This document shows positions 1,671-20,920 of a stretch of DNA of 22,256 nt, in pieces (position 1 is the first letter of the stretch; every line of letters starts with the position of its first letter). The notes below the pieces were generated by a model, which was given only the letters and a program-made list of their open reading frames with translations, searched no databases and was not told the DNA's origin. The translations under genes and the position numbers were made by a program. Source of the DNA: Pseudomonadota bacterium (GTDB lineage: Bacteria > Pseudomonadota > Gammaproteobacteria > Burkholderiales > Burkholderiaceae); NCBI GenBank assembly GCA_021783435.1, contig JAJXUC010000051.1, positions 1-22,256 of the forward strand, written 5' to 3'.

Positions 1671-2645
1671 TCAAGCCGTGCCGGCGTCTGCGGGTGGCGG
1701 AGAATGGGCGCCGCGCCAGGCCGCCACGGCCTCGGCCAGCGAACCGAGGGCGCGCGTGACCTGAACGCCGGGCACCGCGCGTTTGAGCGCGGGTGACGAG
1801 CCACCGGCCCACAGGGCCACATGGGCAGGCAGCTTGTCGCGCAGCTCAGCCAGCGCGTCCAGCACCTGGGTCTGGGTCGGCACGCCGGAGAAACTCAGCA
1901 CCAGCACGTCGCTGTGGTGTGCCTGCACCGCCAGCAGCATGTTCCACAACGGCGTCTGCACGCCCAGCGAGATGCAGTGGCATCCCTCCAGCGCCAGCAT
2001 GGCTTCGGCCATCAGCAAGCCCATGCCGTGCGGCTCCTGCGGGATGGTGGTGAGCAGCACGCGGGGGCGCGCTGCGGCCGTTGCTTCCGGACCAGGAACA
2101 GCCGCGATGCCGGCGCGCAGCACGCGATGCATGATTTCCGAAAACAGGTGCTCTTCGAAAATTTCCAGGTCGCCGCGCATCCAGGCCTCGCCAACCTCCG
2201 TGATGAGCGGGGCGACGATCTCGGTCACGAAGCGGCCCAGGCCCAGGCGCATCTGGGTCTGCACCAGTTCACGCCGCAGCTTCTCGGCGTCGTGTTGCTT
2301 GATCAGCTGCAGGTAATGCACGCTCTGGGCCCGAGCCTGGACCTGCATGCGGGCGAGTGGCGCCCGCACGGAGCCGTCCTGCGCCCGTGCCAGGGCATCG
2401 AGGTGCTCGGTTGGCAGGCCGACGATGCGCCCGGGCCGGTGCCCGGCACCCATGAGGCGCTTGATCAGCCGCAGCTTCTCCACCTGATCGAGCGGGTATT
2501 GGCGCTCGTCCATGGCGTCGCGCAGCGGTTGGGGAAAGCCGTAGCGCCGTTCCCAGACTCGCAGAGTGTCCTTGGGGATTCCGGTATCGCGTTCGACGGC
2601 GGCAATGTTCATGCGCAGGGCGGATAAGGCGGTGCGGTCATTCAT
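1671..2645 (-). CDS. litR: MerR-type regulator with B12-binding photosensor domain (LitR/CarH family)
   Basis: A 324-residue transcription factor. Residues 12-80 form a MerR-type winged helix (IPKDTLRVWERRYGFPQP). Residues 105-180 form the four-helix cobalamin cap with the Trp-x9-Glu-His signature (Trp155, Glu165, His166). Residues 195-310 form the Rossmann-type B12-binding domain with the ExHxxG motif (Glu204, His206, Gly209); His206 is the expected lower cobalt ligand. In known CarH/LitR proteins, adenosylcobalamin drives tetramer formation and operator binding in the dark, and light cleaves the Co-C bond and frees the promoter. Both signature motifs are intact, so light sensing is a strong inference. 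The residue after Trp155 is Met156, where Thermus CarH has the His that caps cobalt after illumination. The gene is divergent from the operon it probably controls. A TTGACA -35 element lies upstream at 2700-2695. Confidence 0.9.
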   Translation of the reverse strand: MNDRTALSALRMNIAAVERDTGIPKDTLRVWERRYGFPQPLRDAMDERQYPLDQVEKLRLIKRLMGAGHRPGRIVGLPTEHLDALARAQDGSVRAPLARMQVQARAQSVHYLQLIKQHDAEKLRRELVQTQMRLGLGRFVTEIVAPLITEVGEAWMRGDLEIFEEHLFSEIMHRVLRAGIAAVPGPEATAAARPRVLLTTIPQEPHGMGLLMAEAMLALEGCHCISLGVQTPLWNMLLAVQAHHSDVLVLSFSGVPTQTQVLDALAELRDKLPAHVALWAGGSSPALKRAVPGVQVTRALGSLAEAVAAWRGAHSPPPADAGTA

Positions 2646-2694
2646 GGGCGCGAGTTTCGCGGTCGGGTTGAATCCGTATCGACATGACAGGCGT

Positions 2695-2700
2695 TGTCAA
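2695..2700 (-). promoter_or_regulatory. Candidate -35 element of the litR promoter
   Basis: The minus strand reads a perfect TTGACA 50 bp upstream of the litR start codon. The matching -10 region (GATACGGAT on the minus strand) is poor, as would suit a regulated promoter. GGAC/GTCC half-sites at 2708-2712, 2734-2747 and 2751-2755 lie just upstream of it and could let LitR regulate itself. Confidence 0.35.
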
Positions 2701-2733
2701 ACATGGGTGTCCAGCGCCGATTGCTGAAGGAAG

Positions 2734-2755
2734 TGGACGACCGTCCATCCGGACA
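2734..2755. promoter_or_regulatory. GGAC/GTCC half-site cluster near litR
   Basis: TGGAC-N4-GTCCA forms a perfect inverted repeat (2734-2738 with 2743-2747) and is followed by GGACA (2751-2755). These are the same half-sites as in the three strong dyads near the peroxidase gene, but with a wider spacer. This may be a lower-affinity autoregulatory site for the LitR-like protein; this is inference only. Confidence 0.3.
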
Positions 2756-2820
2756 TTGACGTTGAGGGGCATCTTTGTCGTGCTGCCACTGTACGCGTCG
2801 GCATCTTAGGCGGCCTTGAC

Positions 2821-2888
2821 TCGTCCTGGACAAAACCCCACAGTTGTCCTGGACAAAACCGGTTCTGATTGTATTTTGTCCAGGACAT
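2821..2888. promoter_or_regulatory. Three 13-bp operator dyads, probable LitR sites
   Basis: Three copies of the dyad TTGTCC-w-GGACAA occur between the divergent genes. Copy 1 (2821-2833) has one mismatch in the left arm. Copy 2 (2844-2856) is perfect. Copy 3 (2876-2888) has one mismatch at its right end and an A as its central base. GTCCTGGACAAAACC is repeated exactly at 2823-2837 and 2846-2860, and TTTTGTCCAGGAC is its inverse at 2874-2886. Centres are 23 and 32 bp apart. A possible promoter lies inside: TTGTCC (2844-2849) and TTGTAT (2869-2874) with a 19-bp spacer, a spacing typical of MerR-regulated promoters. Several adjacent sites suit a tetrameric CarH/LitR repressor. The dyads are visible directly; assigning them to LitR is inference from position. 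Confidence 0.72.
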
Positions 2889-2938
2889 CCTGCATCATCC
2901 GATCCACGCTCATGCCTGCCATCCCAACGGAGTTACCC

Positions 2939-3538
2939 ATGCGCTTCTTTCCCATCGTGGTTGCCATTGCCTGCTTCGGCGGCCTGGCCCTGAATGCCCA
3001 AGCCGCCAACACCCAAGCGCCCGCCGCGGCCACTCCCCAGGCGGCCTCGGGCACCTGCCCGACCCTGCTCAACCAGACAGTGCCGCGCTTGCAGGACGAC
3101 AAAGCCATCGACCTTTGTCAATACGCCGGCAAGGTCGTGCTGGTGGTGAACACCGCCAGCTACTGCGGCTTCACCCCGCAATACAAGGGGCTGGAGGCGA
3201 TGTACAAGAAATACGGGCCGGAAGGCTTGGTGGTGCTCGGGTTCCCATCCAACGACTTCAACCAGGAAATGAAGGATCCGAGCAAGATCGCCGCGTTCTG
3301 CAAGGACACCTACAACGTGAATTTCCCGATGTTCGCGCCTTCGCACGTCACCGAGCCCCAACCCAACAGCTTCTACAAGAAGCTCATCCTGGCCACGGGC
3401 GATCAACCCAAGTGGAACTTCTACAAATACCTCATCGATCGCCAAGGCAAGGTGGTCAACGTGTATTCCAGCCTGACAACCCCCGAGAACACGGAGTTCG
3501 TCGACAAGGTCCAGGCGCTGCTGAAGCAAAAGAGCTGA
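2939..3538 (+). CDS. Exported glutathione/thioredoxin peroxidase
   Basis: A 199-residue protein of the glutathione peroxidase family, which reduces H2O2 or lipid hydroperoxides with thiols. Residues 1-22 form a signal peptide (hydrophobic core then NAQA), so it acts outside the cytoplasm, and an Ala/Pro-rich linker follows. The peroxidatic Cys76 lies in the family motif (ASYCGFTPQYKGLE), and the catalytic Trp159 and Asn160 are present in KWNFYKY. The usual CNQF motif is SNDF (104-107), so the catalytic Gln is replaced by Asp106. Cys121 is placed to be a resolving cysteine, which suggests thioredoxin-type reduction. ATG 2939 is preferred because it opens the signal peptide and has CGGAG 7-10 bases upstream. 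First gene downstream of the three dyads, so probably light-induced. Confidence 0.9.
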   Translation: MRFFPIVVAIACFGGLALNAQAANTQAPAAATPQAASGTCPTLLNQTVPRLQDDKAIDLCQYAGKVVLVVNTASYCGFTPQYKGLEAMYKKYGPEGLVVLGFPSNDFNQEMKDPSKIAAFCKDTYNVNFPMFAPSHVTEPQPNSFYKKLILATGDQPKWNFYKYLIDRQGKVVNVYSSLTTPENTEFVDKVQALLKQKS

Positions 3539-3570
3539 AGTCGGCGAGCCGGCCGCGGCCGCAAGGGTCG

Positions 3571-3588
3571 GTCGGCGCCCGTGCCGAC
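3571..3588 (+). terminator. Weak hairpin between peroxidase gene and folE2
   Basis: GTCGGC (3571-3576) pairs perfectly with GCCGAC (3583-3588) around a 6-base loop. No T-run follows, so at best it is a partial terminator or an RNA-stability element. The 153-bp gap is the longest but one inside the operon. Confidence 0.2.
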
Positions 3589-3691
3589 AGCCGCTGGCTG
3601 GCCTTGCGCGAGTGTGTGCGGCAGGCCCCTACACACTCGAAATCACCACGCACCCCCAGGCGCTTCGCGCCGCAAGTCGAAAGGACCGCAG

Positions 3692-4525
3692 ATGAATGCC
3701 CCGGAAAAGTTGTTCAGCAAAGCCGCCCCCCTGCCTGACATTCAGGCCACCCCGGACCGCCGCAATCTGCCCATCCAGCATGTGGGCGTCAAGGGTGTGC
3801 GCCATCCGGTGCTCATCCGCACCGCGGACGGCGCGACCCAACCCAGCGTGGCCACGTTCGATCTCCACGTTGCGCTGCCGCCGGAGGTGAAAGGCACGCA
3901 CATGTCGCGCTTCGTCGAACTGCTGGAGGCCCACGCCGGCGAAGCGCTCGAACCGACCAGCCTGCGCGCCCTGCTGGCCGACATGCTCGCCCGCCTCGGA
4001 GCCGAAGCCGGTGACATCACGCTGAGCTTCACCTATTTCATGCGCAAGACCGCGCCGGTCTCGGGCGTGAGCAGCCTGATGGACTACGCGGTCACCCTGC
4101 ATGCGGCGGGTCGTGCCGGCGAACCGGCGCTGCTGCGCCAGACCGTGCAGGTGCCGGTCACTAGCCTGTGCCCCTGTTCCCGTGAAATTTCCAACTACGG
4201 AGCCCACAACCAGCGCTCCCATCTCACGCTCGCGGTCGAACTGAACGCCGACATGCATCTGGAGGAGCTGATCCGCGTGGCCGAATCCGCGGCTTCGTGC
4301 GAGCTCTGGGGCCTGCTCAAGCGGCCCGACGAGAAATACGTCACCGAGCGCGCCTACGACAACCCCAAGTTCGTCGAAGACCTGGTGCGCGACGTCGCCC
4401 TGGCCCTGCGGGAGGATGCCCGCGTCGACGCCTTCACGGTGGAATCGGAGAACTTCGAGTCCATTCACAACCACTCGGCCTATGCGCGCCTCGTCTTCTC
4501 ACGGGCCACGGTCGATGCCGGCTGA
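3692..4525 (+). CDS. folE2: GTP cyclohydrolase FolE2 (type IB)
   Basis: A 277-residue type IB GTP cyclohydrolase, which converts GTP to dihydroneopterin triphosphate, the entry step to folate and pterins. Type IB enzymes do not depend strictly on zinc. The catalytic and metal-binding residues are visible: Cys160 in [12 protein letters not shown], His172 in GAHNQRS, and the C-terminal [13 protein letters not shown] segment (251-263). Length is near the family norm. ATG 3692 follows AAAGGA with good spacing. folE2 is a recurrent member of LitR-type light-regulated clusters, where it is thought to supply the pterin antenna of photolyase. No photolyase gene lies in this window, so its role here may be folate or pterin supply for another purpose. 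Confidence 0.95.
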
Positions 4526-4586
4526 ATCCAGTTTCAAGAGCGCGTCGTATGCGTAGACAAGGAGCTCGCGCAACGACGCCCGTCAG

Positions 4587-4612
4587 GGCATGGACGGCTC
4601 CCATCCCATGCC
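4587..4612 (+). promoter_or_regulatory. Hairpin ahead of a small ORF
   Basis: GGCATGG (4587-4593) and CCATGCC (4606-4612) form a perfect 7-bp stem with a 12-base loop. It ends directly against the GAGGA ribosome binding site (4613-4617) of the 26-codon ORF at 4625. It might modulate translation or be a processing site between folE2 and the next genes. Confidence 0.3.
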
Positions 4613-4624
4613 GAGGACTGTGAC

Positions 4625-4705
4625 ATGACTGCCCGCCCGACGACTTCGCCCTCTGACGCCCCACCCGGCAGACATCGCACGGCTTCGCCCGCGAGGAGCG
4701 GGTGA
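4625..4705 (+). CDS. Possible 26-residue leader ORF
   Basis: ATG 4625 is preceded by GAGGA at 4613-4617 with a 7-base spacer. The frame runs 26 codons (MTARPTTSPSDAPP then Arg/His/Ser-rich) to a TGA at 4703-4705 that shares its A with the start ATG of the FAD oxidoreductase (TGATG). This arrangement would couple translation of the two. The peptide resembles no family I know, is rich in Pro, Ser, Thr and Arg, and has no hydrophobic segment. It could be a real small protein, a coupling leader, or chance in GC-rich DNA. Confidence 0.3.
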   Translation: MTARPTTSPSDAPPGRHRTASPARSG

Positions 4706-6069
4706 TGCGCGTCGCCATCGTCGGTTCCGGCATCGCCGGTCTCGCTGCCGCCTGGCGACTCAAGGACCAGGCGCAGATCACCGTGTACGAAGCCGGCGGG
4801 TATTTCGGCGGCCACACGCACACGGTGGACGCCACGGTCGGCGGCATCCACCATCCGGTCGACACCGGCTTCCTGGTGCTCAACCGCCGCACCTACCCCG
4901 GTTTGCTCGGCTTGTTCGCCGAACTGAATATTCCGCTCGCCGAGTCCGACATGTCGTTCTCGGTGCAGCAGCCCTTGGCTGGCGGGCGGCTGGAGTGGAG
5001 CGGCGCCAATCTCGACTCGGTCTTCGCCCAGCGCTCCAACCTGCTGCGTCCGCGCTTCTGGTTCATGTTGCGCGACATCCTGCGCTTCAACCGCGAAGCC
5101 ACGGCCCTGGCCGAGGCCGGCTGCGACCCGGGCCGGGACGCACGCAGCGTCGGCGACTTTCTGCGCCAGGGCGGCTACGGCGAGGCCTTCACCCAGTGGT
5201 ATTTCCTGCCCATGGCCGCCTGCATCTGGTCTTGCCCCACCGAGCAGATGCTGGCCTTCCCGCTGGCGACGATGGTGCGCTTCTGCCACAACCACGGACT
5301 GCTGCAAGTGCGCGACCGGCCGCAGTGGCTCACGGTTCGCGGCGGTGCGCGGCAGTATGTGCAGCGCATCGTCGAGCGCCTGCCGGACACGCGCCTGAAC
5401 ACCCCGGTGCGGCGCATCAAGCGCTTCGATGTCGGTGTGGAGGTGAGCACCGACGCGGGCACCGAATGGTTCGACCATGTCGTGCTAGCCTGCCACAGCG
5501 ACCAGGCCCTGGCGCTGCTGGCCGACCCGAGTGAAGCCGAGCGCAGCGTGCTCGGCGCCATCGGCTATCAGCCCAATCGCGCGCTGCTGCATACCGATGC
5601 CAGCCTGCTGCCGCGCAACACCAAAGCCTGGGCGGCATGGAATTACGAAAGCGCCGGTGCGCGTGCCCACGGCGCTCCCGCACTTGCGACGGCCCAGGCC
5701 GCAGTCGCGCAGCCCCAGGCCCAACCCGCGGTGTGCCTGCACTACCTCGTCAACAAACTGCAACCGGTGCCTTTTCAGCAGCCGGTGATCGTGTCGATGA
5801 ACCCGCTGCGTGAACCCGAGCCCGCCAGCGTGCTGCGCGAGATGACCTACGCCCACCCGGTGTTCGACGCCGCGGCCATGGCGGCGCAGTCCCGCGTGCC
5901 CGAGCTGCAGGGCCGGCAGCGCACCTACTACTGCGGCGCCTGGTGCGGCTACGGTTTTCACGAAGACGGACTGAAGGCTGGCTACGCCGCCGCGCAAGCC
6001 CTGCTCGGCCAGGTGCAAAAGCATGTTCACGGCAGCTTGCAGACCGCGCTGGAGGCGCAGCCGCGATGA
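4705..6069 (+). CDS. FAD/NAD(P)-dependent oxidoreductase (COG2907-like)
   Basis: A 454-residue flavoprotein of the amine-oxidase/desaturase-like superfamily. The N-terminal dinucleotide-binding motif VGSGIAGLAAAW is at residues 5-16, followed by an acidic strand end (YEAGGYFGGHTHTV). The C-terminal FAD contact region is near YYCGAWCGYGFHEDGLKAG. Members of this group travel with DUF1365 and cyclopropane-synthase-like genes and are believed to act on membrane acyl chains; from memory, a flavin-type desaturase of furan fatty acid synthesis is comparable. ATG 4705 with GAGGAG 7 bases upstream is chosen; a GTG one codon earlier is possible. The stop overlaps the next start (ATGA at 6066). Confidence 0.88.
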   Translation: MRVAIVGSGIAGLAAAWRLKDQAQITVYEAGGYFGGHTHTVDATVGGIHHPVDTGFLVLNRRTYPGLLGLFAELNIPLAESDMSFSVQQPLAGGRLEWSGANLDSVFAQRSNLLRPRFWFMLRDILRFNREATALAEAGCDPGRDARSVGDFLRQGGYGEAFTQWYFLPMAACIWSCPTEQMLAFPLATMVRFCHNHGLLQVRDRPQWLTVRGGARQYVQRIVERLPDTRLNTPVRRIKRFDVGVEVSTDAGTEWFDHVVLACHSDQALALLADPSEAERSVLGAIGYQPNRALLHTDASLLPRNTKAWAAWNYESAGARAHGAPALATAQAAVAQPQAQPAVCLHYLVNKLQPVPFQQPVIVSMNPLREPEPASVLREMTYAHPVFDAAAMAAQSRVPELQGRQRTYYCGAWCGYGFHEDGLKAGYAAAQALLGQVQKHVHGSLQTALEAQPR

Positions 6070-6959
6070 GCGCCGCCACCCGCCTGCTGCGCAGTGTCCC
6101 GCCGGGCAAGGCACGCACCTCCAGCCAGGATCCGGGGCTGCTGCAAGCGCACGAGGGCGCGGCCCAGGTGCAGCCCCTGATCGCGCGCGGCATGGTGCAT
6201 CACCAGCGCCTGCGGCCGACCGTCCACCACTTCGCCTACCGCGTGTTTTTCCTGCTGCTGCCCATGCGCACCCTGGCGCGTGACCCGGCACTGCTGCGCA
6301 TCGCCCGCAACCGCGGCGGCCTGATGAGCTTCCATGACAGCGACCATGGCGACGGCGGCGCCGACAGCCTGGCCTGGCTGCTCGGTGTGCTGCGCGAGCA
6401 GGGTGTTGCCGATGCCGACGGCGAGGTCTGGCTGCAGACCTTCCCGCGCGTGCTCGGCTATGTCTTCAACCCCGTGAGCTTCTGGTACTGCCACCGCGCG
6501 GACGGCGCGTTGCGCGCCATCGTCGCCGAAGTCAACAACACCTTCGGCGAGCGCCACTGCTACCTGCTGGAGCCGCCGCAGCAAGGCGGCGCGCAAACCC
6601 TGGCGTGGGGCCAAGAGCTGCGCGCCACCAAGGTGTTCCACGTCTCGCCGTTTTGCCGGGTCCAGGGCAGCTACCGCTTCCGCTTCCTGCGCGCCCGGCG
6701 GCGCGAAGGCCAGGTCGAGGCGGAGCGCATCGTCGCCCGCATCGACCACGACGACGCGCAAGGGCCCTTGCTCCTCACCAGCATCAGCGGCGTCCTGCAG
6801 ACGCTCACTCCGGCCTCAGGCCGCGCCGCGTTGCTCAGCCATCCCCTCATGACCCTGGGCGTCATGGCCCGCATCCATTGGCAGGCGCTCAAGCTCTGGC
6901 GCAAGCGCGTGCCCTTCTTGTCCAAACCCGCTCCACCAGAAACCCGAGTGACGCGATGA
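6066..6959 (+). CDS. DUF1365 family protein
   Basis: A 297-residue protein of the DUF1365 family. The conserved N-terminal block begins at MVHHQRLRPTVHHFAYRVFF, and the central block reads FPRVLGYVFNPVSFWYC followed by EVNNTFGERHCYLL, both diagnostic. About 42 residues precede the usual family start, so translation might instead begin at ATG 6192. ATG 6066 overlaps the upstream stop, which favours coupled translation. The biochemical role of the family is not established; it is almost always found between a COG2907 flavoprotein and a cyclopropane-synthase homologue, which implies a shared lipid-modifying pathway. Its stop overlaps the next gene (ATGA at 6956). Confidence 0.88.
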   Translation: MSAATRLLRSVPPGKARTSSQDPGLLQAHEGAAQVQPLIARGMVHHQRLRPTVHHFAYRVFFLLLPMRTLARDPALLRIARNRGGLMSFHDSDHGDGGADSLAWLLGVLREQGVADADGEVWLQTFPRVLGYVFNPVSFWYCHRADGALRAIVAEVNNTFGERHCYLLEPPQQGGAQTLAWGQELRATKVFHVSPFCRVQGSYRFRFLRARRREGQVEAERIVARIDHDDAQGPLLLTSISGVLQTLTPASGRAALLSHPLMTLGVMARIHWQALKLWRKRVPFLSKPAPPETRVTR

Positions 6960-8227
6960 ACAGCCAACCTTCTTCCGCAGCCGCCAGAACGGCCAACCCG
7001 TCCGCCCTGGGTTCTGCACCGCTGCGCGGCGTGCCGCTGGCGGCGCGCACCCTGCTGGCCCTGCTGCAACGCCTGCAGCGCGGGAGGTTGGAATTGCGCC
7101 TGCCCGATGGCGCCATGCTGCACTTCGGCGAGCATGAGGTTGCCGCGCCGCTGGCGCATCTGCATGTGCATGATTGGGCGGTGTTCTCGGCGGTGCTGCG
7201 GCGCGGCGACATCGGCTTTGCCGAAGGTTATTTTCAGGGCCAGTGGAGCACGGTCGATCTGCCTGGCCTGCTCAAGCTGCTGCTGGCCAATCGCAACGCG
7301 GTCGAGCTGGCGCTCCACGGCAGCGTCTGGGGCACGCTGTTCGCGCGGCTGCGCCACCTGTTCAACCGCAATTCGCGCAGCGGCAGCCGCCACAACATCC
7401 ATCAGCATTACGACATCGGCAACGCCTTCTACCAGCTCTGGCTGGACCCCGGCATGACCTACTCCAGCGCGCTGTTCACGGCACCGGGGCAAAGTCTGCA
7501 AGACGCGCAAGACGCCAAGCTGGAGCGCGTGCTGCGCCAGCTCGACCTGCCCGCCGGCGGCCGCGTGCTGGAAATCGGCTGCGGCTGGGGCAGTTTCGCC
7601 GAGGCGGCCGCGCGCGCCGGGCTGCGGGTGGACGGCCTGACCCTGTCCACCGAGCAGTTGGCGTATGCGCAAGCCCGGCTGCAGGCCGCGGGGCTGGACC
7701 AGCGGGCCCGGCTGGAGTTGCGCGACTACCGCGATGCGAGCGCCATCGCGCCGGCAGGGGGTTACGACGGCATCGCATCCATCGAAATGTTCGAAGCCGT
7801 CGGCGAGGCGTACTGGCCGAGCTTTTTCCGCACCCTCGCCAGCCAGCTCAGGCCGGGCGGACGCGCCTGCATTCAGACCATCACCATCGCCGAAGCCATC
7901 TTTCCGCAGTACCGCCGCGGCACCGATTTCATCCAGCAGTACATCTTCCCCGGCGGCATGCTGCCCAGTCCGTCGGCCTTTGCCGCGCAGGCCGCAAAGG
8001 CTGGGCTGGAGGTCGTCGCCACCCATGCCTTCGGGCAAGACTACGCCACCACGCTCGGCTTGTGGCGCGAGCGTTTTCTGGCGCAGCGCGAAGCGGTCCG
8101 CGCCCAGGGGTTCGATCAGCGCTTCAGCCTGCTGTGGGAGTTTTACCTGGCGTATTGCGAGGCCGGTTTCGCCCAGCAGACCATCGACGTGATGCAGTTC
8201 ACGCTGCGCCACCAGCGCGCTGCTTGA
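6956..8227 (+). CDS. SAM-dependent lipid methyltransferase, cyclopropane-synthase-like
   Basis: A 423-residue protein of the cyclopropane-fatty-acyl-phospholipid synthase family, which adds a one-carbon unit from SAM to cis double bonds in phospholipid acyl chains. The SAM motif VLEIGCGWGSF is at 204-214, the catalytic-region MFEAVG at 278-283 (Glu280), and YIFPGGMLPS at 329-338. Compared from memory with E. coli Cfa, the bicarbonate-site Cys139 is Ser171 and His266 is Gln307, while the Glu and a Tyr (Tyr397) are kept. This places it in the divergent subfamily seen next to DUF1365, whose members may make methylated unsaturated chains rather than cyclopropanes (UfaM-like). Start ATG overlaps the DUF1365 stop. 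Confidence 0.88.
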   Translation: MNSQPSSAAARTANPSALGSAPLRGVPLAARTLLALLQRLQRGRLELRLPDGAMLHFGEHEVAAPLAHLHVHDWAVFSAVLRRGDIGFAEGYFQGQWSTVDLPGLLKLLLANRNAVELALHGSVWGTLFARLRHLFNRNSRSGSRHNIHQHYDIGNAFYQLWLDPGMTYSSALFTAPGQSLQDAQDAKLERVLRQLDLPAGGRVLEIGCGWGSFAEAAARAGLRVDGLTLSTEQLAYAQARLQAAGLDQRARLELRDYRDASAIAPAGGYDGIASIEMFEAVGEAYWPSFFRTLASQLRPGGRACIQTITIAEAIFPQYRRGTDFIQQYIFPGGMLPSPSAFAAQAAKAGLEVVATHAFGQDYATTLGLWRERFLAQREAVRAQGFDQRFSLLWEFYLAYCEAGFAQQTIDVMQFTLRHQRAA

Positions 8228-8244
8228 GGCCGGCGACCGCATCC

Positions 8245-8919
8245 ATGACCTCGACACGATCGCCCTGGTCCATGCGCGAGCCCGGCATCTTCACCCATAT
8301 GCGCCGGTTGCACGGTCAAGCCGCGATGCCGGCATCGCCAGCGCGTCGTGCCGCGCTGGCGGGTCTGGCGGCGGGCGCCACCACGCTGCTGGCGCCGGGC
8401 ATGGTTCATGCCGCGACAGGCGCCATGTCCGTGCCGCAGGTGGTGGCCCATGCCATCCCTGGCTCCCGCCTGTCGGGAAGCGGCCTGTTCCGTTGGTGGG
8501 GCTTCGCGGTCTACACCGCGGCGCTCTGGGTTGGCCCCGGCGGAATCGACCCGGCGCGACTGACCGCCGCCCCCTTTGCGCTGGAGTTGCGCTACGCCCG
8601 CAACCTCAAGGGACGCGCGATTGCCGATCAATCGGACGCCGAAATGCGCAAGCTGGAGCAGGGCACCGCTGCCGAGCGCGCACAGTGGTTGGCGCAGATG
8701 CGCGCGATCTTCCCCGATGTGGGCGATGGCGACTGGCTTTGCGGTCTGTTCGAACCCAAGACGCCGGACGGGCCGCGCACCACGTTCTGGTTCAACGGCA
8801 AGCCCATCGGCGTGGTCGGTGGAGAGGCCTTTGCCCAGGCTTTTTTCTCCATCTGGCTGTCGCCCAAGACCGCCGCCCCGGATCTGCGCAGGGCCTTGCT
8901 GGCCCAGGCCGCGCCATGA
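8245..8919 (+). CDS. Chalcone-isomerase-like exported protein
   Basis: A protein of up to 224 residues resembling the bacterial chalcone isomerase-like family (PF16036). A twin-arginine-like signal sequence is visible (SPARRAALAGLAAGATTLLA, ending MVHA), followed by the family pattern of SGSGLFRWWGFAVYTAALWV, a LRYARNLKGRAIAD block, and FNGKPIGVVGGEAFAQAFFSIWL near the end. Bacterial members lack a demonstrated isomerase activity and are thought to bind fatty acids or other hydrophobic ligands outside the cytoplasm. The start is uncertain: in-frame ATGs lie at 8245, 8272, 8299 and 8326 and none has a clear ribosome binding site; 8245 is closest to the upstream stop (17 bp). The stop overlaps the next ATG at 8916. 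Confidence 0.78.
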   Translation: MTSTRSPWSMREPGIFTHMRRLHGQAAMPASPARRAALAGLAAGATTLLAPGMVHAATGAMSVPQVVAHAIPGSRLSGSGLFRWWGFAVYTAALWVGPGGIDPARLTAAPFALELRYARNLKGRAIADQSDAEMRKLEQGTAAERAQWLAQMRAIFPDVGDGDWLCGLFEPKTPDGPRTTFWFNGKPIGVVGGEAFAQAFFSIWLSPKTAAPDLRRALLAQAAP

Positions 8920-10295
8920 ATCCGGCGTTATCCACATCCGCCATGGCACCGCCGTCCGCCGCCGTGCCCAGCGCCATGCCCCCGGACCGGGCGCCCTATG
9001 GCTCGCTGCAACTTGCCCGCTATGGCGCACCGCAGTTTGCGTTGAGTTTCGTCGCCTTGCCGCTCTATGTCTTTTTGCCGGACTATTACGCCACCCGCTA
9101 TGCCGTGCCGCTCGGCTTTCTCGGCGTCGTGCTGCTCCTGGCGCGCCTGCTCGATGGCTTGATCGACCCCGCCATCGGCCGTCTCGCCGACCGCATGCTG
9201 GGGGTCGGGCGCGGCTGGGGCTTCATGGCTGTCAGCGGCGTGGCGCTGGCGCTGGGTTTCGCCCTGCTGCTGGGGTTCCCGGCGTGGCTGGCCTACGCGC
9301 CGCAACCCGCCCTGTTTGCCGCCGCGATGGGGCTGGCTCTGCTGCTGACCTACGTCGGCTACAGCGCCGTGGGCGTGACGCATCAGGCCTGGGGCGCGGG
9401 CTTGGGCGATACCGAACCCGAGCGCGCCCGCACCTTTGCCTGGCGCGAAGCGCTGGGTCTGGCCGGAGTTCTCGTGGCCGCGACCGTGACGCAACTCGGC
9501 GGTGCCTCGGGCTTCACGCTGGTGTTCACCGCCAGCCTCGCGCTGGGCCTGTGGCTGGTGAAAACCGCACCTTTGCCGCGCCATGTTCCCGGTTTGCAGC
9601 ATGGGTTGCGTGGATGGCAAGCGGCTCTGGAGCCTTTGCGCCATGTCGCGTTCCGCCGCCTGCTGCTGGTGTATCTGGCCAGCGGCGTGGCGGCCTCGGT
9701 GCCGGCCACGCTGGTGCTGTTCTTCATCCGCGACCGCATCGGCGCGGCCCAACTCTCCGGGCTGTATCTGTTCATCTACTTCGCGTTCGGCGCCGCTTGC
9801 GTGCCCTTGTGGCTGCGCGCGGTGCGCCGCTTCGGCGCAGCGGCCAGCTGGCTCATCGGCATGGGGCTCACGGTGGCGGTTTTCCTGTGGGCGGCGTTGC
9901 TGCAGCCCGGTGACCGCTGGGCTTACGCTGGCGTGTGCGCCGCCTCCGGCCTGGCGCTGGGTTCCGACCTGGTGTTGCCGCCAGCGCTGCTGGCAGGGTT
10001 GATTCGCAGCCTGGGCCACGGCGGCCGGCTCGAAGGCGCCTACTTCGGCATCTGGGGCATGGCCACCAAGCTGACTCTGGCGCTGGCCGCCGGTGTCGCC
10101 CTGCCGCTCCTGGCCAGCCTCGGCTATACACCGGGCTCCCCCGCCACGGGCGTGCTGCCGCCGCTGGTGGTGGTGTACTGCCTGCTGCCCTGCGGGCTCA
10201 AGCTGGCGTCGGCCGCACTGCTGTGGTCGGGCTGGATGCGCCCGGCGCGCAACCCTGATTTCTTGACGGCTCGACAACGGAGGAATTCGCCATGA
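8916..10295 (+). CDS. MFS transporter, GPH (MelB-like) family
   Basis: A 459-residue inner-membrane protein with about twelve hydrophobic segments. The helix-2 loop sequence ARLLDGLIDPAIGRLADR matches the glycoside-pentoside-hexuronide (MelB-type) symporter pattern. The first 30 residues are a polar Pro/Ala-rich extension. The substrate cannot be read from the sequence; GPH-type members of lipid operons like this one might move a lysolipid or lipid head group rather than a sugar, as the related LplT and MFSD2A transporters do. Coupled by ATGA to the genes on both sides. Confidence 0.85.
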   Translation: MNPALSTSAMAPPSAAVPSAMPPDRAPYGSLQLARYGAPQFALSFVALPLYVFLPDYYATRYAVPLGFLGVVLLLARLLDGLIDPAIGRLADRMLGVGRGWGFMAVSGVALALGFALLLGFPAWLAYAPQPALFAAAMGLALLLTYVGYSAVGVTHQAWGAGLGDTEPERARTFAWREALGLAGVLVAATVTQLGGASGFTLVFTASLALGLWLVKTAPLPRHVPGLQHGLRGWQAALEPLRHVAFRRLLLVYLASGVAASVPATLVLFFIRDRIGAAQLSGLYLFIYFAFGAACVPLWLRAVRRFGAAASWLIGMGLTVAVFLWAALLQPGDRWAYAGVCAASGLALGSDLVLPPALLAGLIRSLGHGGRLEGAYFGIWGMATKLTLALAAGVALPLLASLGYTPGSPATGVLPPLVVVYCLLPCGLKLASAALLWSGWMRPARNPDFLTARQRRNSP

Positions 10296-10849
10296 ATCAT
10301 GTCTGGAAACACCTGCGCCTCGGCGGCATCGCGCTGCTGTTTGCCGCCTTGCTGGGGGGCTGCGCCAGCGTCACGCCGATGGACTACCGCGGCGAGAAAC
10401 CGACGCTCGCGTTGGAGCGCTATTTCAACGGCCCGCTGTCAGCCGATGGCGTGGTGTTCAACCGCTCGGGCAAGGTCATCAAGCGCTTCCACGTGGACCT
10501 CACCGGCACCTGGAAGGGCGACGAAGGCAAGCTGGTCGAGCACTTCGTCTACAGCGACGGCAGCAAGCAGGAGCGCATCTGGAAGCTCACGCGCCTGCCC
10601 GGCAAGAACGGCGAGCGGCGCTACGAAGGCACGGCTGGCGACGTCGTCGGCACCGCCCATGGCTATGCCGAAGGCAATGCCTTCAATTGGCACTACACCC
10701 TGGCACTGCCGGTGGACGGCACGATCTACAACGTGCAGATGGATGACTGGATGTACCAGATGAACGATCATGTGCTGCTCAACCACACCGTGATGACCAA
10801 GTTCGGCTTCCGGGTGGCCAGCATTTTCATCGCCTTCCACAAGCCCTGA
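10292..10849 (+). CDS. DUF3833 family lipoprotein
   Basis: A 185-residue predicted lipoprotein. A charged N-terminus and hydrophobic stretch lead to the lipobox LLGGC, with lipidated Cys24; the next residues ASV suit outer-membrane sorting. The body (PTLALERYFNGPLSADGVVF, KVIKRFHVDLTGTW, YNVQMDDWMYQMNDHVLLN) is typical of DUF3833, a beta-rich family found in LitR and singlet-oxygen operons. Function is not established; a periplasmic lipid-binding role has been guessed from context. GGAGG lies 8 bases before the ATG, which overlaps the MFS stop. Confidence 0.85.
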   Translation: MNHVWKHLRLGGIALLFAALLGGCASVTPMDYRGEKPTLALERYFNGPLSADGVVFNRSGKVIKRFHVDLTGTWKGDEGKLVEHFVYSDGSKQERIWKLTRLPGKNGERRYEGTAGDVVGTAHGYAEGNAFNWHYTLALPVDGTIYNVQMDDWMYQMNDHVLLNHTVMTKFGFRVASIFIAFHKP

Positions 10850-10896
10850 TGCGCGCCTTGAAGCGCACCCCGCGGCGCCCACAGACGAGTTGAACC

Positions 10897-11658
10897 ATGC
10901 CCCTGAACGCGCCGCTCACCCACTGGTCCGGTCAACGTGTCTGGATTGTCGGCGCCTCCAGTGGCATCGGCGCCGCACTCGCCCACGATTTGCTCGCACG
11001 CGGCGCCCGCGTCGCGGTGTCGGCGCGCAGCGCCGACAAGCTCGCCGCCCTGACGGGCGCCCTGGCCCTGCCGCTGGACGTGCGCGACGCCGCGGCGCTG
11101 CCGGCGGCGATGCAGCAATTGCAGGCCGCATTCGGCGGGCTGGACCTGCTGGTGTATTGCGCCGGCACCTACGTGCCGCAACGCGCCGCGGCCTTCGATC
11201 TGGCGTCGGCGCTGGTCCATGACGACGTCAATTACCGCGGTGCGCTGCACACGCTGGCCGCTGTGCTGCCGGTGCTGCAGGCGCAGCACCGTGGCCACAT
11301 CGCCCTGGTCAGCAGCGTGGCGGGTTGGCGCGGCCTGCCGCAGGCGCTGGCTTATGGCCCGACCAAGGCGGCGCTGACCAATCTGGCCGAGGTGCTGTAT
11401 GTCGATCTGCGCGCGGCCGGCATCGGCGTCAGCGTCATCAACCCGGGCTTCGTCGAGACCCAGCTCACGGCGCAGAACACATTCGCCATGCCGGGGCTGC
11501 AGACGCCGCAGCAAGCAGCGGCGGCCATCGTCCGGGGCTGGCAGCGCGGGGACTTCGACATTCACTTTCCCAAGCGCTTCACCTTCGTGCTTCGGTTGCT
11601 GCGCATTCTGCCCTATCGCCTGTATTTCGCGGCCGTGAGCCGCTTCACCGGACTGTGA
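10897..11658 (+). CDS. Short-chain dehydrogenase/reductase
   Basis: A 253-residue classical SDR. The nucleotide motif GASSGIG is at residues 19-25, the catalytic serine in VSS (139-140), and the YxxxK pair is Tyr153 and Lys157. The NPGFVETQLT segment after the active site is also typical. It should oxidise or reduce a carbonyl or hydroxyl group with NAD(P); the substrate is unknown, and in this operon a lipid-derived ketone or alcohol is plausible. The C-terminus (FVLRLLRILPYRLYFAAVSR) is hydrophobic and basic and may touch the membrane. It follows the lipoprotein gene by 47 bp and precedes the NTF2-like gene by 4 bp. Confidence 0.9.
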   Translation: MPLNAPLTHWSGQRVWIVGASSGIGAALAHDLLARGARVAVSARSADKLAALTGALALPLDVRDAAALPAAMQQLQAAFGGLDLLVYCAGTYVPQRAAAFDLASALVHDDVNYRGALHTLAAVLPVLQAQHRGHIALVSSVAGWRGLPQALAYGPTKAALTNLAEVLYVDLRAAGIGVSVINPGFVETQLTAQNTFAMPGLQTPQQAAAAIVRGWQRGDFDIHFPKRFTFVLRLLRILPYRLYFAAVSRFTGL

Positions 11659-11662
11659 GCCG

Positions 11663-12121
11663 ATGGATCAGCCGCGCTTGGCGCCACCGGAAGACCAGGC
11701 GCCGCTGGCGCGTTTCGTCGCGTATTTCGAAGCCTTGACACCCCAGTCGCTCACCGCACTCGGCAGCGTCTACGCAGTCGGGGCGCGTTTCAAAGACCCG
11801 TTCAACGCGGTGCAGGGGCTCGACGCGCTACGGCGCATCTTCGCCCATATGTTCGCCACCACGGAAGCCCCGCGTTTCGTCGTGCTGCAGGCCTTGGGCG
11901 ATGCGGCGCAAGGTTTCGTCATCTGGGACTTTCACTTCCGCAGCAAGGGGCGCGGCGGGCGTGACTGGACCATCCACGGCGCCAGTCGGTTGGAGTTCGA
12001 CACCGCCGGGCGGGTGACCCTGCACCGGGACTACTGGGACGCCGCGGAAGAACTCTACGAGCACCTGCCCTTGCTGGGGGCGGTGCTGCGCGGGGTGAAA
12101 AAGCGATTGCGGGCGTCTTGA
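11663..12121 (+). CDS. NTF2-like / SnoaL-like domain protein
   Basis: A 152-residue single-domain protein of the nuclear transport factor 2-like fold. The pattern includes an N-terminal helix (LARFVAYFEALTPQS), the block YAVGARFKDPFNAVQG, and the later RLEFDTAGRVTLHRDYWD strand pair, all typical of the fold. No signal peptide is present. These proteins form cone-shaped ligand pockets; members in LitR clusters have no proven activity. Probably the last gene of the plus-strand operon, since the next gene is on the other strand after a degenerate spacer. Confidence 0.82.
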   Translation: MDQPRLAPPEDQAPLARFVAYFEALTPQSLTALGSVYAVGARFKDPFNAVQGLDALRRIFAHMFATTEAPRFVVLQALGDAAQGFVIWDFHFRSKGRGGRDWTIHGASRLEFDTAGRVTLHRDYWDAAEELYEHLPLLGAVLRGVKKRLRAS

Positions 12122-12420: not shown

Positions 12421-13641
12421 TCAGGGCGCCGGAACCTGGATGTCGATGAAGCGTCGGATGACGTCGGCCTGGGCCAGCGCGTCACGCTCGCCCAGTTGCG
12501 TCAACTCGGTGCAGAAGCCGGGTTCGAACAGCAGATAGCTGGCGAGCGCCGCGCCCGTGGCTTCGGCCGCGCCGACGGCACCCATGAGGACGCGCATGCC
12601 GCGCGGCATGCGCTTCCAGTGTCGCGCGGCGATGGCGTTGATGGATTCGGACGGCGTGATGAGCAGCACCGGAAATTCGCGAAACGGCTGCAGCGTTCGC
12701 GCCTGTGGCGGCAGTCGGCGCACGGCGGTGTTGATGTGCTCGGCCAGTTGCGCATCGGCCGGCAGGGTGTCGAGAAACACGGTCGACAGCACATGCCCGG
12801 CAATCTGGGCGATGGAGGGGTAGTCGCGTTCGTCCGGGGCGATCCAGGCCGTGGCGCCGCGCGGCTCGCTCACGCCGATGGCCAGGGCGCAGCGCGCGCC
12901 CAGCCGAATCGCGGGGGCCAGGGGCGCGAGTTGACGCATGGCGCCATCGCCGCAGAACTCGGCCTGCTCGCCAGTCCACAGCTTCACCGCCGGAAAGACG
13001 AAAGGCAGGGCGCTGCTGGCGAGCAAGTGGTCGAGGGAGATGGTCTGCGCCAGTCCCCAGATGCCCGGGCGGCGCCAACCCGGCATATCCGCTGCGCCCT
13101 GGAAGAAGGTGATGTGCCGGCCGGTGGAATAACTCGATGCGGTGATGGCCAAGGCCCGCAGCGCGCCGCTCTGCACAGCGGCGTCGACCCGGTCGAGCCG
13201 GATGTGGCGGCCCAGGGTGTCGGCCAGCGGCGTGTTGTCCAGCAAGGCACGCGGACTCTGGCGCACCAGCCAGCCCGTCGACATCAAGCCCAGCCAGCGC
13301 AGCCCGCCGCGCAGCAAATGGTGTGGCTGGGTGTGAAACACCTGATCGGCATGCAGACCGTTCCAGATCCCCGGCAGTGCGCGTAGCGTCTCGGCCCAGG
13401 TGGCCACGCCGCTGGCGTAATGCGCCGCGTTGATGGCCCCCGCCGAGGTGCCGCAAACCACCGGAAACGGATTGCGCTGCGCCGGCCAACCCTGCTGCTG
13501 CAAGATGTCGGCCAGCCCCTGCAGCACGCCGGCTTGGTACGCGGTGCGGGCCCCACCGCCAGGCAGCACCAGTGCCGAGCCCTCGAGCGTCAAGGGTCGG
13601 GCGCAGGGCGGAGTCAGGGGCGGTTCGTCTTGCATGGACAT
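12421..13641 (-). CDS. Patatin-like phospholipase
   Basis: A 406-residue patatin-family serine hydrolase, expected to release fatty acids from phospholipids or other acyl esters. The oxyanion-hole motif GGGARTAYQ is at 28-36, the nucleophile is Ser66 in GTSAG, and the dyad aspartate is Asp232 in CGDGAM. The C-terminal third (EHINTAVRRLPPQA and onward) is the usual extension of bacterial DUF3336-less patatins. No signal peptide is present, so it is probably cytosolic or membrane-associated. ATG 13641 (MSMQDEPP) is chosen over the longer open frame because the upstream residues are not conserved-looking; ATG 13635 is also possible. It stands alone between two operons. Confidence 0.88.
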   Translation of the reverse strand: MSMQDEPPLTPPCARPLTLEGSALVLPGGGARTAYQAGVLQGLADILQQQGWPAQRNPFPVVCGTSAGAINAAHYASGVATWAETLRALPGIWNGLHADQVFHTQPHHLLRGGLRWLGLMSTGWLVRQSPRALLDNTPLADTLGRHIRLDRVDAAVQSGALRALAITASSYSTGRHITFFQGAADMPGWRRPGIWGLAQTISLDHLLASSALPFVFPAVKLWTGEQAEFCGDGAMRQLAPLAPAIRLGARCALAIGVSEPRGATAWIAPDERDYPSIAQIAGHVLSTVFLDTLPADAQLAEHINTAVRRLPPQARTLQPFREFPVLLITPSESINAIAARHWKRMPRGMRVLMGAVGAAEATGAALASYLLFEPGFCTELTQLGERDALAQADVIRRFIDIQVPAP

Positions 13642-14042
13642 CTCAGTTGCCACATGGTGCGGCAATTCCGTGCGGCGCTCAAGGTGATTGTCCGCAACGC
13701 CGACAGGGCGCTGCTCCTTGCACCGCAATGCGGCGCCGAGCCCGGTCCATGCCCTTGTGCCGGGAATTCAGGAGCCGCAATGATAGGAACAATTGTGCTT
13801 CTATCCGGCACAAATTAATGCAGTTTGGCAATTTAAGCCGGCGTTGACTACGGATTTCCGACATGAAGCCCGCTGTCATGGTCGCCGTGATGCAATCCAA
13901 TCTTGATTTTGGCGGGCGGGGGGCGCACACTGCAATCGCCTCGTTGTTGCGGGCACGGCAGGCCAGCGATCGGCCTTGCCGTCCTGCCAGCAGGCCTTGT
14001 TTCGCGATCAACCGTTCGCTCAACGTCTACCTGGAGGGATCT
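13642..14042. promoter_or_regulatory. Divergent intergenic region, patatin / hpf
   Basis: This 401-bp gap holds no convincing gene. It contains a 12-codon ORF at 13780-13818 (MIGTIVLLSGTN) with AGGAG upstream, and a TTGACT element at 13844-13849 without a good -10. A further weak pair is TTGATT (13903-13908) and CACACT (13926-13931) with a 17-bp spacer, which could serve hpf. The stretch 13790-13850 is AT-rich compared with its surroundings and is the most promoter-like part. Confidence 0.35.
13791..13816. repeat. Inverted repeat AATTGTGC / GCACAAATT
   Basis: AATTGTGC (13791-13798) faces GCACAAATT (13808-13816) across a 9-base spacer, with six perfect pairs and a one-base bulge beyond. It sits in the most AT-rich part of the patatin/hpf gap, so it may be an operator or a small hairpin. 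No T-run follows. Confidence 0.35.
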
Positions 14043-19644: not shown

Positions 19645-20289
19645 TCAGGATGACGTCTGCACCCCTTCGATCTCCACCCTCACCTGCACCTTGTGGCTCA
19701 GGCCGCTGGGGTAGGCGCTCATGCCGAAGTCCATGCGATCGATGGTGGCCGTGGCGACGAAACCGGTGAGGTAGCCGCCCCAGGGTTTGGGCAAATAGGG
19801 CACCTTGCCAGCGCCTTCGAGCTGGACATGAAAGACCACCGGCTTGGTCACGCCGCGCAGGGTCATGTCGCCATAGAGCAGTCCGCGATCCTGGCTTTGG
19901 GGCACATACTTGGTGCTGACGAAATGGATGTCGGGGTTGGCCTTGGCGTCGAAAAAGGCGGCTCCCTTGAGGTCGTCGTCACGCATCGGGAAAAAGGTGT
20001 CGAGGCCGTCCACCGGAACCGTGATGTCAGCCTTGTCGGCCTTGGGGTTCTTCGGGTCGAAGGTGTAGCTGCCGGTGACCTTCTTGAACACACCGGTGAA
20101 CAATCCGATGCCGGCATGGCCGATGGTGAACTGCAAGCCGGAGTGGTCGGGGTCGACCTGGTAGCTGCCTGCCGGACTGGCGTGCTGGCGGGCGTAGGCC
20201 TGAGGGGCCTGGGTCTGGGCTGCCCAGGTGGGGACGATCAGCGTCAAGGCTGTCGCGGTGGCCAGGGTGAGGCGGGCGACGAGGTGCAT
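19645..20289 (-). CDS. YceI family periplasmic protein (copy 1)
   Basis: A 214-residue exported protein with a signal peptide of about 23 residues (ends TWAAQ). The YceI lipocalin-like barrel includes YQVDPDHSGLQFTIGHAGIG, the block TGSYTFDPKNPKADKADITV, and VTKPVVFHVQL. Related proteins bind polyisoprenoid lipids, including ubiquinone-type chains. AAGGAG sits 8 bases before the start. Last gene of the marR operon, 58 bp after its paralogue. Confidence 0.92.
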   Translation of the reverse strand: MHLVARLTLATATALTLIVPTWAAQTQAPQAYARQHASPAGSYQVDPDHSGLQFTIGHAGIGLFTGVFKKVTGSYTFDPKNPKADKADITVPVDGLDTFFPMRDDDLKGAAFFDAKANPDIHFVSTKYVPQSQDRGLLYGDMTLRGVTKPVVFHVQLEGAGKVPYLPKPWGGYLTGFVATATIDRMDFGMSAYPSGLSHKVQVRVEIEGVQTSS

Positions 20290-20347: not shown

Positions 20348-20920
20348 TCAGCCTTGGGGCGCGACCACCAGATGCACGTGGATGGGCAGCGCGGCCGCCA
20401 CCACGCCGGTGTCGGCCCACGAGCCCGTGCCCAGACCGAAGGCCATGCGATCGAGCTGGAAGTCGGCGTCCATCACCAGATTGGCGCCGACCGGATGCGT
20501 CGTCACGAGCACGCGCAGCGGCTGGGTTTTGCCCTTGACGGTGAACTGCCCCGTGAGCCAATACTTCCCCGGGCCGGCCGGGGTGAAGCCGGTGGAGGTG
20601 AAGCGGTCCTGGGGATAGGCTTTCGCGTCCAGCCAGTCGCTGCCGGTGAGCAGGTCGTCGGTCTGGCCGCTGCCGGCGTCCACGCTTGCGGCGTTGATGG
20701 CCACGCTCACATGGCTCTTGGGCAGATCAGCGGGCAGGAAATCCACCACCGCCATCAGCGTCTTGAAATGGCCGTGCATGGCCACGCCCATTTGCGTGGC
20801 GCTGAAGTCCACCGTGGATGCGGGCAGCGCCCGCGTGTAGGCAGTCTGGGCAAACACGGGCGAGGCCGAGCCCATCGCGAAGAGCAGGGCGAGGCTGATG
20901 CGACGAAGCGCAGGGATCAT
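20348..20920 (-). CDS. YceI family periplasmic protein (copy 2)
   Basis: A 190-residue exported YceI paralogue, clearly diverged from copy 1. The signal peptide MIPALRRISLALLFAMGSAS ends near PVFAQ; the barrel blocks are STVDFSATQMGVAMHGHFKT, FPADLP-like PADLPKSHVSVAINAASVD and GQFTVKGKTQPLRVLV. ATG 20920 overlaps the cytochrome b561 stop (ATGA), so the two are translated together. The pairing with cytochrome b561 matches yceJ-yceI in E. coli and suggests a redox role involving an isoprenoid quinone. Confidence 0.92.
   Translation of the reverse strand: MIPALRRISLALLFAMGSASPVFAQTAYTRALPASTVDFSATQMGVAMHGHFKTLMAVVDFLPADLPKSHVSVAINAASVDAGSGQTDDLLTGSDWLDAKAYPQDRFTSTGFTPAGPGKYWLTGQFTVKGKTQPLRVLVTTHPVGANLVMDADFQLDRMAFGLGTGSWADTGVVAAALPIHVHLVVAPQG

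Follow-up and report, generated by a model that had tools for sequence, protein, structure and literature searches.

The locus and its gene content

The window considered here, i.e., the whole stretch of 22,256 nt that was analysed (GCA_021783435.1, contig JAJXUC010000051.1, from a pseudomonadotal bacterium of the order Burkholderiales), has on its minus strand a gene, litR, for a 324-aa MerR/B12 regulator and, opposite it on the plus strand between 2939 and 12121, ten genes that LitR is proposed to control (Table 1). A preliminary description of this DNA had a regulator with both LitR/CarH signatures divergent from ten tightly packed genes, several pairs of which overlap by ATGA. The signatures, W155-x9-E165-H166 and E204-P-H206-G-M-G209, are found as claimed, and Pfam assignments of all ten genes bear out the arrangement. 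Four ATGA overlaps were verified (at 6066, 6956, 8916 and 10292), though the tight packing holds only in part, there being gaps of 153 bp between the genes for the peroxidase and FolE2, 179 bp between those for FolE2 and the flavoprotein, and 47 bp between those for the DUF3833 protein and the short-chain dehydrogenase.

It had also been remarked that the gene content resembles that of the furan-fatty-acid genes of Rhodobacter. In R. sphaeroides UfaO, UfaD and UfaM are reported to suffice for the synthesis of methylated furan fatty acid, UfaD being an NAD/FAD-binding protein related to phytoene dehydrogenase, UfaO having DUF1365 and UfaM being an S-adenosylmethionine (SAM) methylase (PMC7380195). 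The families of all three are here together in adjacent, overlapping genes, a likeness of family membership and gene adjacency. By ‘the genus’ is meant below the genomes G001 to G013 together with locus L020, whose LitR is 93% identical to that of the window; the nearest genome, G001, has 39% of the window’s sampled words in common, and among named LitR proteins the nearest are those of Thiomonas, at 90% identity. A search for the cluster order, which had been suggested as a check, found the entire order in five near relatives (L020, G001, G003, G006 and G011) and elsewhere conservation with losses and rearrangements.

Table 1. Features of the regulator gene, the divergent promoter and the operon (positions are those of the window)
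Feature	Position	Strand	Basis and remarks
litR	1671..2645	-	MerR helix-turn-helix, four-helix B12-binding_2 and Rossmann B12-binding domains; Pfam, alignment, AlphaFold
Operator site A, TCGTCCTGGACAA	2821..2833		Palindrome scan; identical in nearest genome
Operator site B, TTGTCCTGGACAA, exact palindrome	2844..2856		Palindrome scan
Candidate operon promoter	2850..2877	+	Script’s best hexamer pair, TGGACA 2850 / TATTTT 2872
Operator site C, TTGTCCAGGACAT, 32 bp past site B	2876..2888		Palindrome scan
Glutathione-peroxidase-family protein (GPx), exported	2939..3538	+	PF00255, 96 bits; signal peptide judged by eye
folE2, GTP cyclohydrolase	3692..4525	+	PF02649; NF010200 285.7 bits, cut-off 215
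ufaD-like FAD amine oxidase/desaturase	4705..6069	+	PF01593
ufaO-like DUF1365 protein	6066..6959	+	PF07103, 267 bits
ufaM-like SAM methyltransferase, CMAS family	6956..8227	+	PF02353, 267 bits
Chalcone-isomerase-like (CHI) exported protein (Chalcone_3)	8245..8919	+	PF16036; start codon uncertain
MFS_2 (GPH-type) transporter	8916..10295	+	PF13347
DUF3833 lipoprotein	10292..10849	+	PF12915, 217 bits; lipobox judged by eye
Short-chain dehydrogenase (SDR)	10897..11658	+	PF00106
SnoaL/NTF2-like protein (SnoaL_2)	11663..12121	+	PF12680

A palindromic operator shared by litR promoters

Within the divergent promoter are three copies, one of them exact, of a 13-bp palindrome, TTGTCCWGGACAA. These copies, sites A to C, are the only matches in the window to TTGTCCNGGACAA at up to two mismatches, three being present where 0.63 are expected and just two of 100 shuffles reaching that number. 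Apart from the script’s choice of hexamers for the operon promoter, an alternative picked by eye, TTGTAT at 2869 with CATCAT at 2893, would place site C inside the spacer.

Is the palindrome a peculiarity of one promoter? With at most one mismatch, TTGWCNNNGWCAA is present in all 14 litR promoter regions of the genus (13 loci and the window), where it has 26 sites; shuffled versions of these regions have a mean of 4.83 sites (maximum 8), with at most eight regions having any. Beyond the genus it is found in 29 of 30 litR promoters, with 51 sites in about 13 kb, the corresponding shuffled regions having a mean of 8.53 (maximum 13) and at most 12 regions with a site. The 30 are 25 regions fetched for this comparison together with L023, L025, L038, L039 and L040. 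The promoter counts exclude the Thauera locus L024, for its different arrangement; L021, a duplicate of the G001 contig; L022, which is short and 99% like the window; and the G004 locus, where the contig is interrupted at litR. A matrix built from the genus sites gave scores higher than those of single-base shuffles (p<0.05) for 24 of 25 other-genus promoters. Four of the ten loci with litR on the same strand (L165–L168) were examined and have no exact site; one of them, L168 (G161), has TTGTACAGGACAA at 1030, 53 bp from TTGTGATGGACAA at 1083, a form intermediate between the LitR palindrome and class II LitR's TGTACA sites.

The spacing of paired sites is also recurrent. Nine of the genus litR promoters contain more than one site, and in each of these two sites are 31–33 bp apart, the other five promoters being single-site; in other genera 16 of the 30 promoters, from at least 11 families including the window’s own, have a pair at 62–65 bp (12 at 63), with eleven further pairs at scattered spacings. 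Ahead of ufa operons unlinked to litR the pairs are 52–53 bp apart, once 76, and in Thauera a 63-bp pair precedes a folE2-ufa operon. At 10.5 bp per turn, these spacings fall mainly into classes of 3, 5 and 6 turns. The phasing resultant is 0.94 for 31 hand-chosen pairs, 0.75 for the full set of 42 with spacings of up to 80 bp, and 0.55 for the 18 distinct spacings, the pairs coming from related genomes and so not being independent. Site A of the window is off phase, being 23 bp (2.2 turns) from B and 55 bp (5.2 turns) from C. Of 16 aligned promoters, ten by script and three more by eye have a TTGAC −35 box that starts 16–17 bp past the start of site 1, and so the promoter, which is sigma-70-like, lies between the paired sites. 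Such a pair is presumably bridged by LitR. In the other genera the TnnACA of site 1 and the −35 TTGAC are 10–11 bp apart, a partial match to the tandem design of CarH operators, from which it follows that the two designs may be related; tandem 11-bp TnnACA repeats as such are absent from the window, whose palindromes are separate, with spacings of 23 and 32 bp.

Sites away from litR within the genus

In the 13 genus genomes exact TTGTCYWRGACAA occurs 30 times (12 of the 13 have one), compared with seven occurrences of the backward pattern. Twelve of the 30 are at litR, 17 are at the 5′ side of other genes and one is unexplained. GPx genes have eight of these 5′ sites, three with ufaM, three with folE2 and two with neither in view; photolyase genes have two, a DPRP cryptochrome-like gene one, and SDR genes, DUF3429 genes and desulfoferrodoxin-domain genes two each. 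In four cases the site is inside the longest open frame, ahead of the recognised domain, the start codon having been judged by eye. When one mismatch is allowed, matches and controls number 13 and 2 in G001, 5 and 3 in G003, and 3 and 5 in G011.

The operon is broken up in several of the genomes. In G002, G004, G007 and G009 ufaD-ufaO-ufaM has lost its linkage to litR and is headed by two near-exact sites with a spacing of 53 bp, and in G012 three sites stand ahead of a folE2-ufa operon, also unlinked (the ufa contig of G008 starts inside ufaD and was left out of the count of unlinked operons). Likewise GPx-ufaM-CHI-MFS_2-DUF3833 has been relocated in G005 and G013, GPx-ufaM in G010, and GPx-folE2 in G002, G007 and G009, each with a site at its head.

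A relative of the DUF3833 gene (45–48% identity) is divergent beside litR in L027, L031, L033 and L036 (G002, G007, G009 and G012 respectively), even with the ufa genes elsewhere, which suggests that DUF3833 is a core partner in the LitR regulon. A possible new member is a gene for a desulfoferrodoxin-domain (superoxide-reductase-like) protein that the palindrome precedes in two genomes, at L079:5420-5830 in G013 and L084:5482-6000 in G012, the domain having been scanned in L079 and L084 being assigned by 85% identity over 136 residues. The DUF3429 genes with the palindrome at their 5′ end are L077:6053-6523 (G005) and L081:4247-4891 (G013). At L087:5988 (G001 contig 63) TTGTCTAGGACAA is between Rrf2 and LysR genes, with no known regulon member adjoining. 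Photolyase was considered as a constant member and rejected, the core photolyase being without a site in all 13 genomes; the photolyase-like loci that carry one are among the non-core ones, just those of G005 and G013.

Linkage across the order

For a wider view 150 genomes at least 90% complete were drawn evenly from the order, matches being taken at E up to 1e-15. LitR is in 49, a DUF1365 relative in 66 and both in 45 (Fisher p=1.8e-17, with no correction for kinship). The two genes are less than 6 kb apart in 39 of these 45, being divergent in 29 and on the same strand in 10. Because within the genus the operator moves with the gene set, and because of this linkage across the order, control by LitR is well supported, and the sequences make it very probable that the operon is under that control. 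Accordingly, as to control, the earlier placing of the operon under a B12-domain regulator stands; its light control and furan product remain a matter of likelihood, to be weighed below.

The genus’s unlinked operons permit a further comparison. A site pair was defined as two sites with at most one mismatch each, 29–69 bp apart, a test devised after the data had been seen. Pairs are at all five unlinked ufa operons of the genus (G002, G004, G007, G009 and G012) and at none of the 21 ufa loci of LitR-negative genomes. It is by the pair test alone that these two groups are separated. The LitR-negative loci do contain single near-exact sites, but no more densely than background (33 in 268 kb).

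The regulator

LitR has, in order, an N-terminal MerR helix-turn-helix (PF13411 MerR_1, 44.4 bits), a B12-binding_2 domain (PF02607, 34.6 bits) and a B12-binding domain (PF02310, 29.0 bits, E 1e-6, under the curated 32.1), which is the domain order of class I LitR/CarH. Assignment to class II, which lacks a complete B12-binding domain, was considered and is out, since LitR has both B12 domains. On alignment to 3whp and 5c8d, W155, E165, H166 and H206 are the equivalents of CarH Trp131, Glu141, His142 and His177, and these four, together with G228 and P232, are invariant in an alignment of 30 sequences. The tryptophan at the place of W155 stacks on the adenosyl group of adenosylcobalamin (AdoCbl), and the histidine at that of H206 is the lower ligand. 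All 25 divergent LitRs retrieved from other genera have the pocket motifs, and adenosyltransferase (PF01923) is in 12 of the 13 genus genomes, the exception, G003, being 86% complete. An AlphaFold model of LitR (pLDDT 87.8, pTM 0.67) has as its best PDB matches Thermus CarH 5c8e, 5c8f and 5c8d, the whole-chain TM-scores being near 0.5 because domain placement differs between the model and CarH. With these features LitR is a probable AdoCbl-dependent repressor.

Proposed mechanism and its alternatives

In the dark AdoCbl-bound LitR, probably as a tetramer of dimers, would bind pairs of the 13-bp palindrome over the divergent promoter and repress both litR and the operon; light would break the Co-C bond and so cause LitR to release the DNA. 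The cell would then make UfaM, UfaD and UfaO, which could convert cis-vaccenoyl chains of phospholipids to methylated furan fatty acid, which is destroyed by singlet oxygen, together with the exported peroxidase, FolE2 for pterin/folate supply, and accessory envelope proteins. That light is the signal, acting through AdoCbl, is quite likely, and on the enzyme families present a furan acid is a likely lipid product. The joint reading, i.e., control by LitR, light as the signal, and furan acid or its methylated precursor as the product, is fairly likely. A more ambitious version, in which a B12 light system for membrane furan lipids is widespread in the order, with LitR tetramers clamping palindromes 3, 5 or 6 turns apart and without the His132 swap, is tentative and falls a little short of an even chance.

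What weighs against this reading? The form of the operator was picked after the sequences had been seen, and when the matrix was run, as a control, within the LitR match, two of 25 loci reached 17.6 and 15.8. Among the 39 linked LitRs are three distant ones (G018, G029 and G035), at 28–29% identity. The core photolyase, of which each of the 13 genus genomes has one, has no site scoring above 12.0, genus sites scoring 18–23.5, and other photolyase-like loci of G001, G002, G004, G007 and G009 have no adjoining site. An exact-site test of the LitR-negative loci is weak, the five unlinked genus operons being also without exact TTGWCNNNGWCAA; a test that the genus’s own unlinked operons fail is too strict. 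In other genera with LitR present and ufa unlinked, there is neither an exact site nor a pair near ufa in any of six cases, two of the six stretches being short (4.2 and 7.8 kb). From the results of the pair test it follows that in other genera the operator goes with the linked, divergent form of the locus, and that ufa genes lying elsewhere in those genomes may have left the LitR regulon. As to the regulator, the NCBIfam equivalog model for CarH, NF052513, gives 98.3 bits against a cut-off of 400, and so LitR is not classed as a CarH equivalog. The published light signature is GxxW, EH, GxxH and GxxxP (PMC11796333), of which LitR has three elements (GEAW, EH and GVQTP), with QEPH in place of GxxH; among 120 listed homologs QEPH is the commonest form (69), with GEPH in 22. 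The place of CarH His132, the residue that serves as upper ligand once Thermus CarH is light-adapted (PMC10442372), is occupied by Met156, and histidine is there in none of the 120 listed homologs and in none of the 25 divergent LitRs from other genera. Given QEPH and Met156, the light switch of LitR is a putative one.

Might LitR then control the operon by sensing the level of AdoCbl or the redox state, any loss of AdoCbl being derepressing, with light not the signal? The bis-His light state cannot form with Met156, and Thermus CarH with H132A is described as remaining largely tetrameric in the light, a contrary earlier report being noted there (PMC10442372). However, CtMerR, with arginine at the place of His132, is reported to be light-responsive, its Co-C bond being cleaved by light to give a different light state (PMC11796333), and from this precedent Met156 does not rule out light sensing. 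Besides, there are sites before photolyase genes in two genomes and before a cryptochrome-like gene in one, which a light stimulus fits best, and a sensor of AdoCbl level or redox state in place of light is unlikely. Uncertainty about the product is of a different kind. The methyltransferase belongs to the CMAS/Cfa family, membership of which does not fix the product, so that a methyl-branched or cyclopropane acid could be made and the DUF1365 protein and flavoprotein do something else. The ufaM-like methylase is under the curated cut-offs of the Cfa (cyclopropane synthase) models; these were tried as a test for UfaM and are not decisive, two Cfa-like paralogs that were scanned also missing the cut-offs, and this too counts on the debit side. 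Set against a non-furan product are the published evidence, which extends to R. palustris genes as well as those of R. sphaeroides (PMC7380195), and the presence in most genus genomes of separate Cfa-like paralogs of about 34–38% identity, the best match to the ufaM-like protein itself being 62–96% identical in all 13. Such a product is unlikely.

The remaining alternatives concern the identity of the controlling protein. Since furan-fatty-acid genes belong to the ECF11/ChrR core regulon (PMC6852236), the operon could be driven by a singlet-oxygen sigma factor/ChrR pair with LitR a mere neighbour, and weak matches to the ChrR model do exist in nine of 13 genus genomes. These, however, align for the most part to the model’s C-terminal half, G001 is without any, and none of the 13, which do not include the window’s own genome, has a match over the curated cut-off, for which a Caulobacter control was positive; ChrR control of the operon was rejected on these grounds. 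Across the order, ChrR is over the cut-off in none of the 66 DUF1365-bearing genomes, with weak partial matches in 31, and so its replacing LitR where LitR is missing was rejected also. That LitR is a bystander to ChrR is barely credible. Alternatively the palindrome could be bound by another oxidative-stress regulator, with litR just one of its targets. Binding by LitR is argued from sequence, and the exact site on G001 contig 63 between Rrf2 and LysR genes would suit such a regulator. On the other side, a site is in litR’s own promoter in nearly all regions examined, the 21 ufa loci of LitR-negative genomes have no site pairs, and the TGGACA within the palindrome fits the TnnACA half-site of CarH (PMC9304148). 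A different binder is very unlikely, and LitR is probably the palindrome-binding protein.

Relation to known light-responsive lipid systems

Light or photo-oxidative control of such lipid modules is already known, in Rhodobacter, Pseudomonas and V. cholerae. In Rhodobacter the same three enzyme families are in a photo-oxidative setting under sigma-E/ChrR (PMC7380195, PMC6852236), but the regulator there is ChrR, whereas here it would be LitR with its own operator, ChrR not being over the cut-off in the 13 genus genomes. By locus tag R. sphaeroides ufaM (RSP2144) is far from ufaDO (RSP1090-1091), and here it adjoins them. In P. mendocina light acts through class II LitR, together with a LOV protein, on ufaM, an FAD oxidoreductase gene, an SDR gene and phrB (PMC9758184), and the Pseudomonas class II LitR (PplR/PmlR) and short-LOV regulon is alike in having a LitR-family repressor and a light-induced ufaM/FAD-dependent oxidoreductase/SDR/phrB cluster; folM and folE are mildly induced as well (PMC9758184). 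It differs in that class II LitR is described as having no second B12 domain and as answering, independently of B12, through the LOV protein, with an operator TGTACA-N12-TGTACA (PMC9758184), in contrast to both B12 domains and the TTGTCCWGGACAA operator here. In V. cholerae a cyclopropane-fatty-acid (CFA)-type gene is reported to be up in blue light, ChrR and a MerR regulator being involved (PMC5241685). The class III LitR of Burkholderia multivorans is, like LitR here, betaproteobacterial and is reported to have a light response; its C-terminus is described as unlike any known functional domain (PMC9758184).

With class I LitR/CarH of Thermus, Bacillus megaterium and Myxococcus there is similarity in domain order, Trp/Glu/His/His pocket, nearness of targets and predicted fold (PMC9304148, PMC10442372). 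Their targets are mainly carotenoid genes, compared with a lipid operon here, and CarH operators are tandem 11-bp TnnACA repeats (PMC9304148), in contrast to paired palindromes and a regulator with no His132 equivalent. However, CarH operator design is reported to be plastic, so tandem repeats are not strictly defining (PMC9304148). B12-type LitR with this operator over such a module was not found in the literature searched, in which subscription journals were poorly covered, and its absence from print is not claimed. A parallel to the operon’s exported peroxidase is the periplasmic glutathione peroxidase reported to be under an extracytoplasmic function (ECF) sigma factor in Shewanella (PMC4336711).

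B12 photoreceptors are known mainly as switches of carotenoid genes, and here one appears to govern membrane-lipid chemistry. If so, the furan-lipid module would have at least three light or singlet-oxygen inputs in different bacteria, namely ChrR, LOV with class II LitR, and B12 LitR, and furan fatty acids would be a light-induced trait of many bacteria, the arrangement being in 39 of the 150 order genomes. The recurring spacing of operator pairs bears on how AdoCbl tetramers hold DNA, and the absence of His132 from every LitR examined on whether the bis-His light state occurs generally or in Thermus alone.

Neighbouring genes

No Rfam match at the gathering score is present in the window and so, at that threshold, no known B12 riboswitch. 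A ClC channel gene is tail to tail with litR, and a patatin-like phospholipase gene (12421-13728) is oppositely oriented to the operon, toward whose end it points, and because of these orientations neither is part of the operon transcript. The scan of the window for palindromes with up to two mismatches found no operator near the patatin-like gene, the product of which could free modified acyl chains. Further along, on the minus strand, are two neighbouring YceI-domain genes, at 19645-20289 and 20348-21214.

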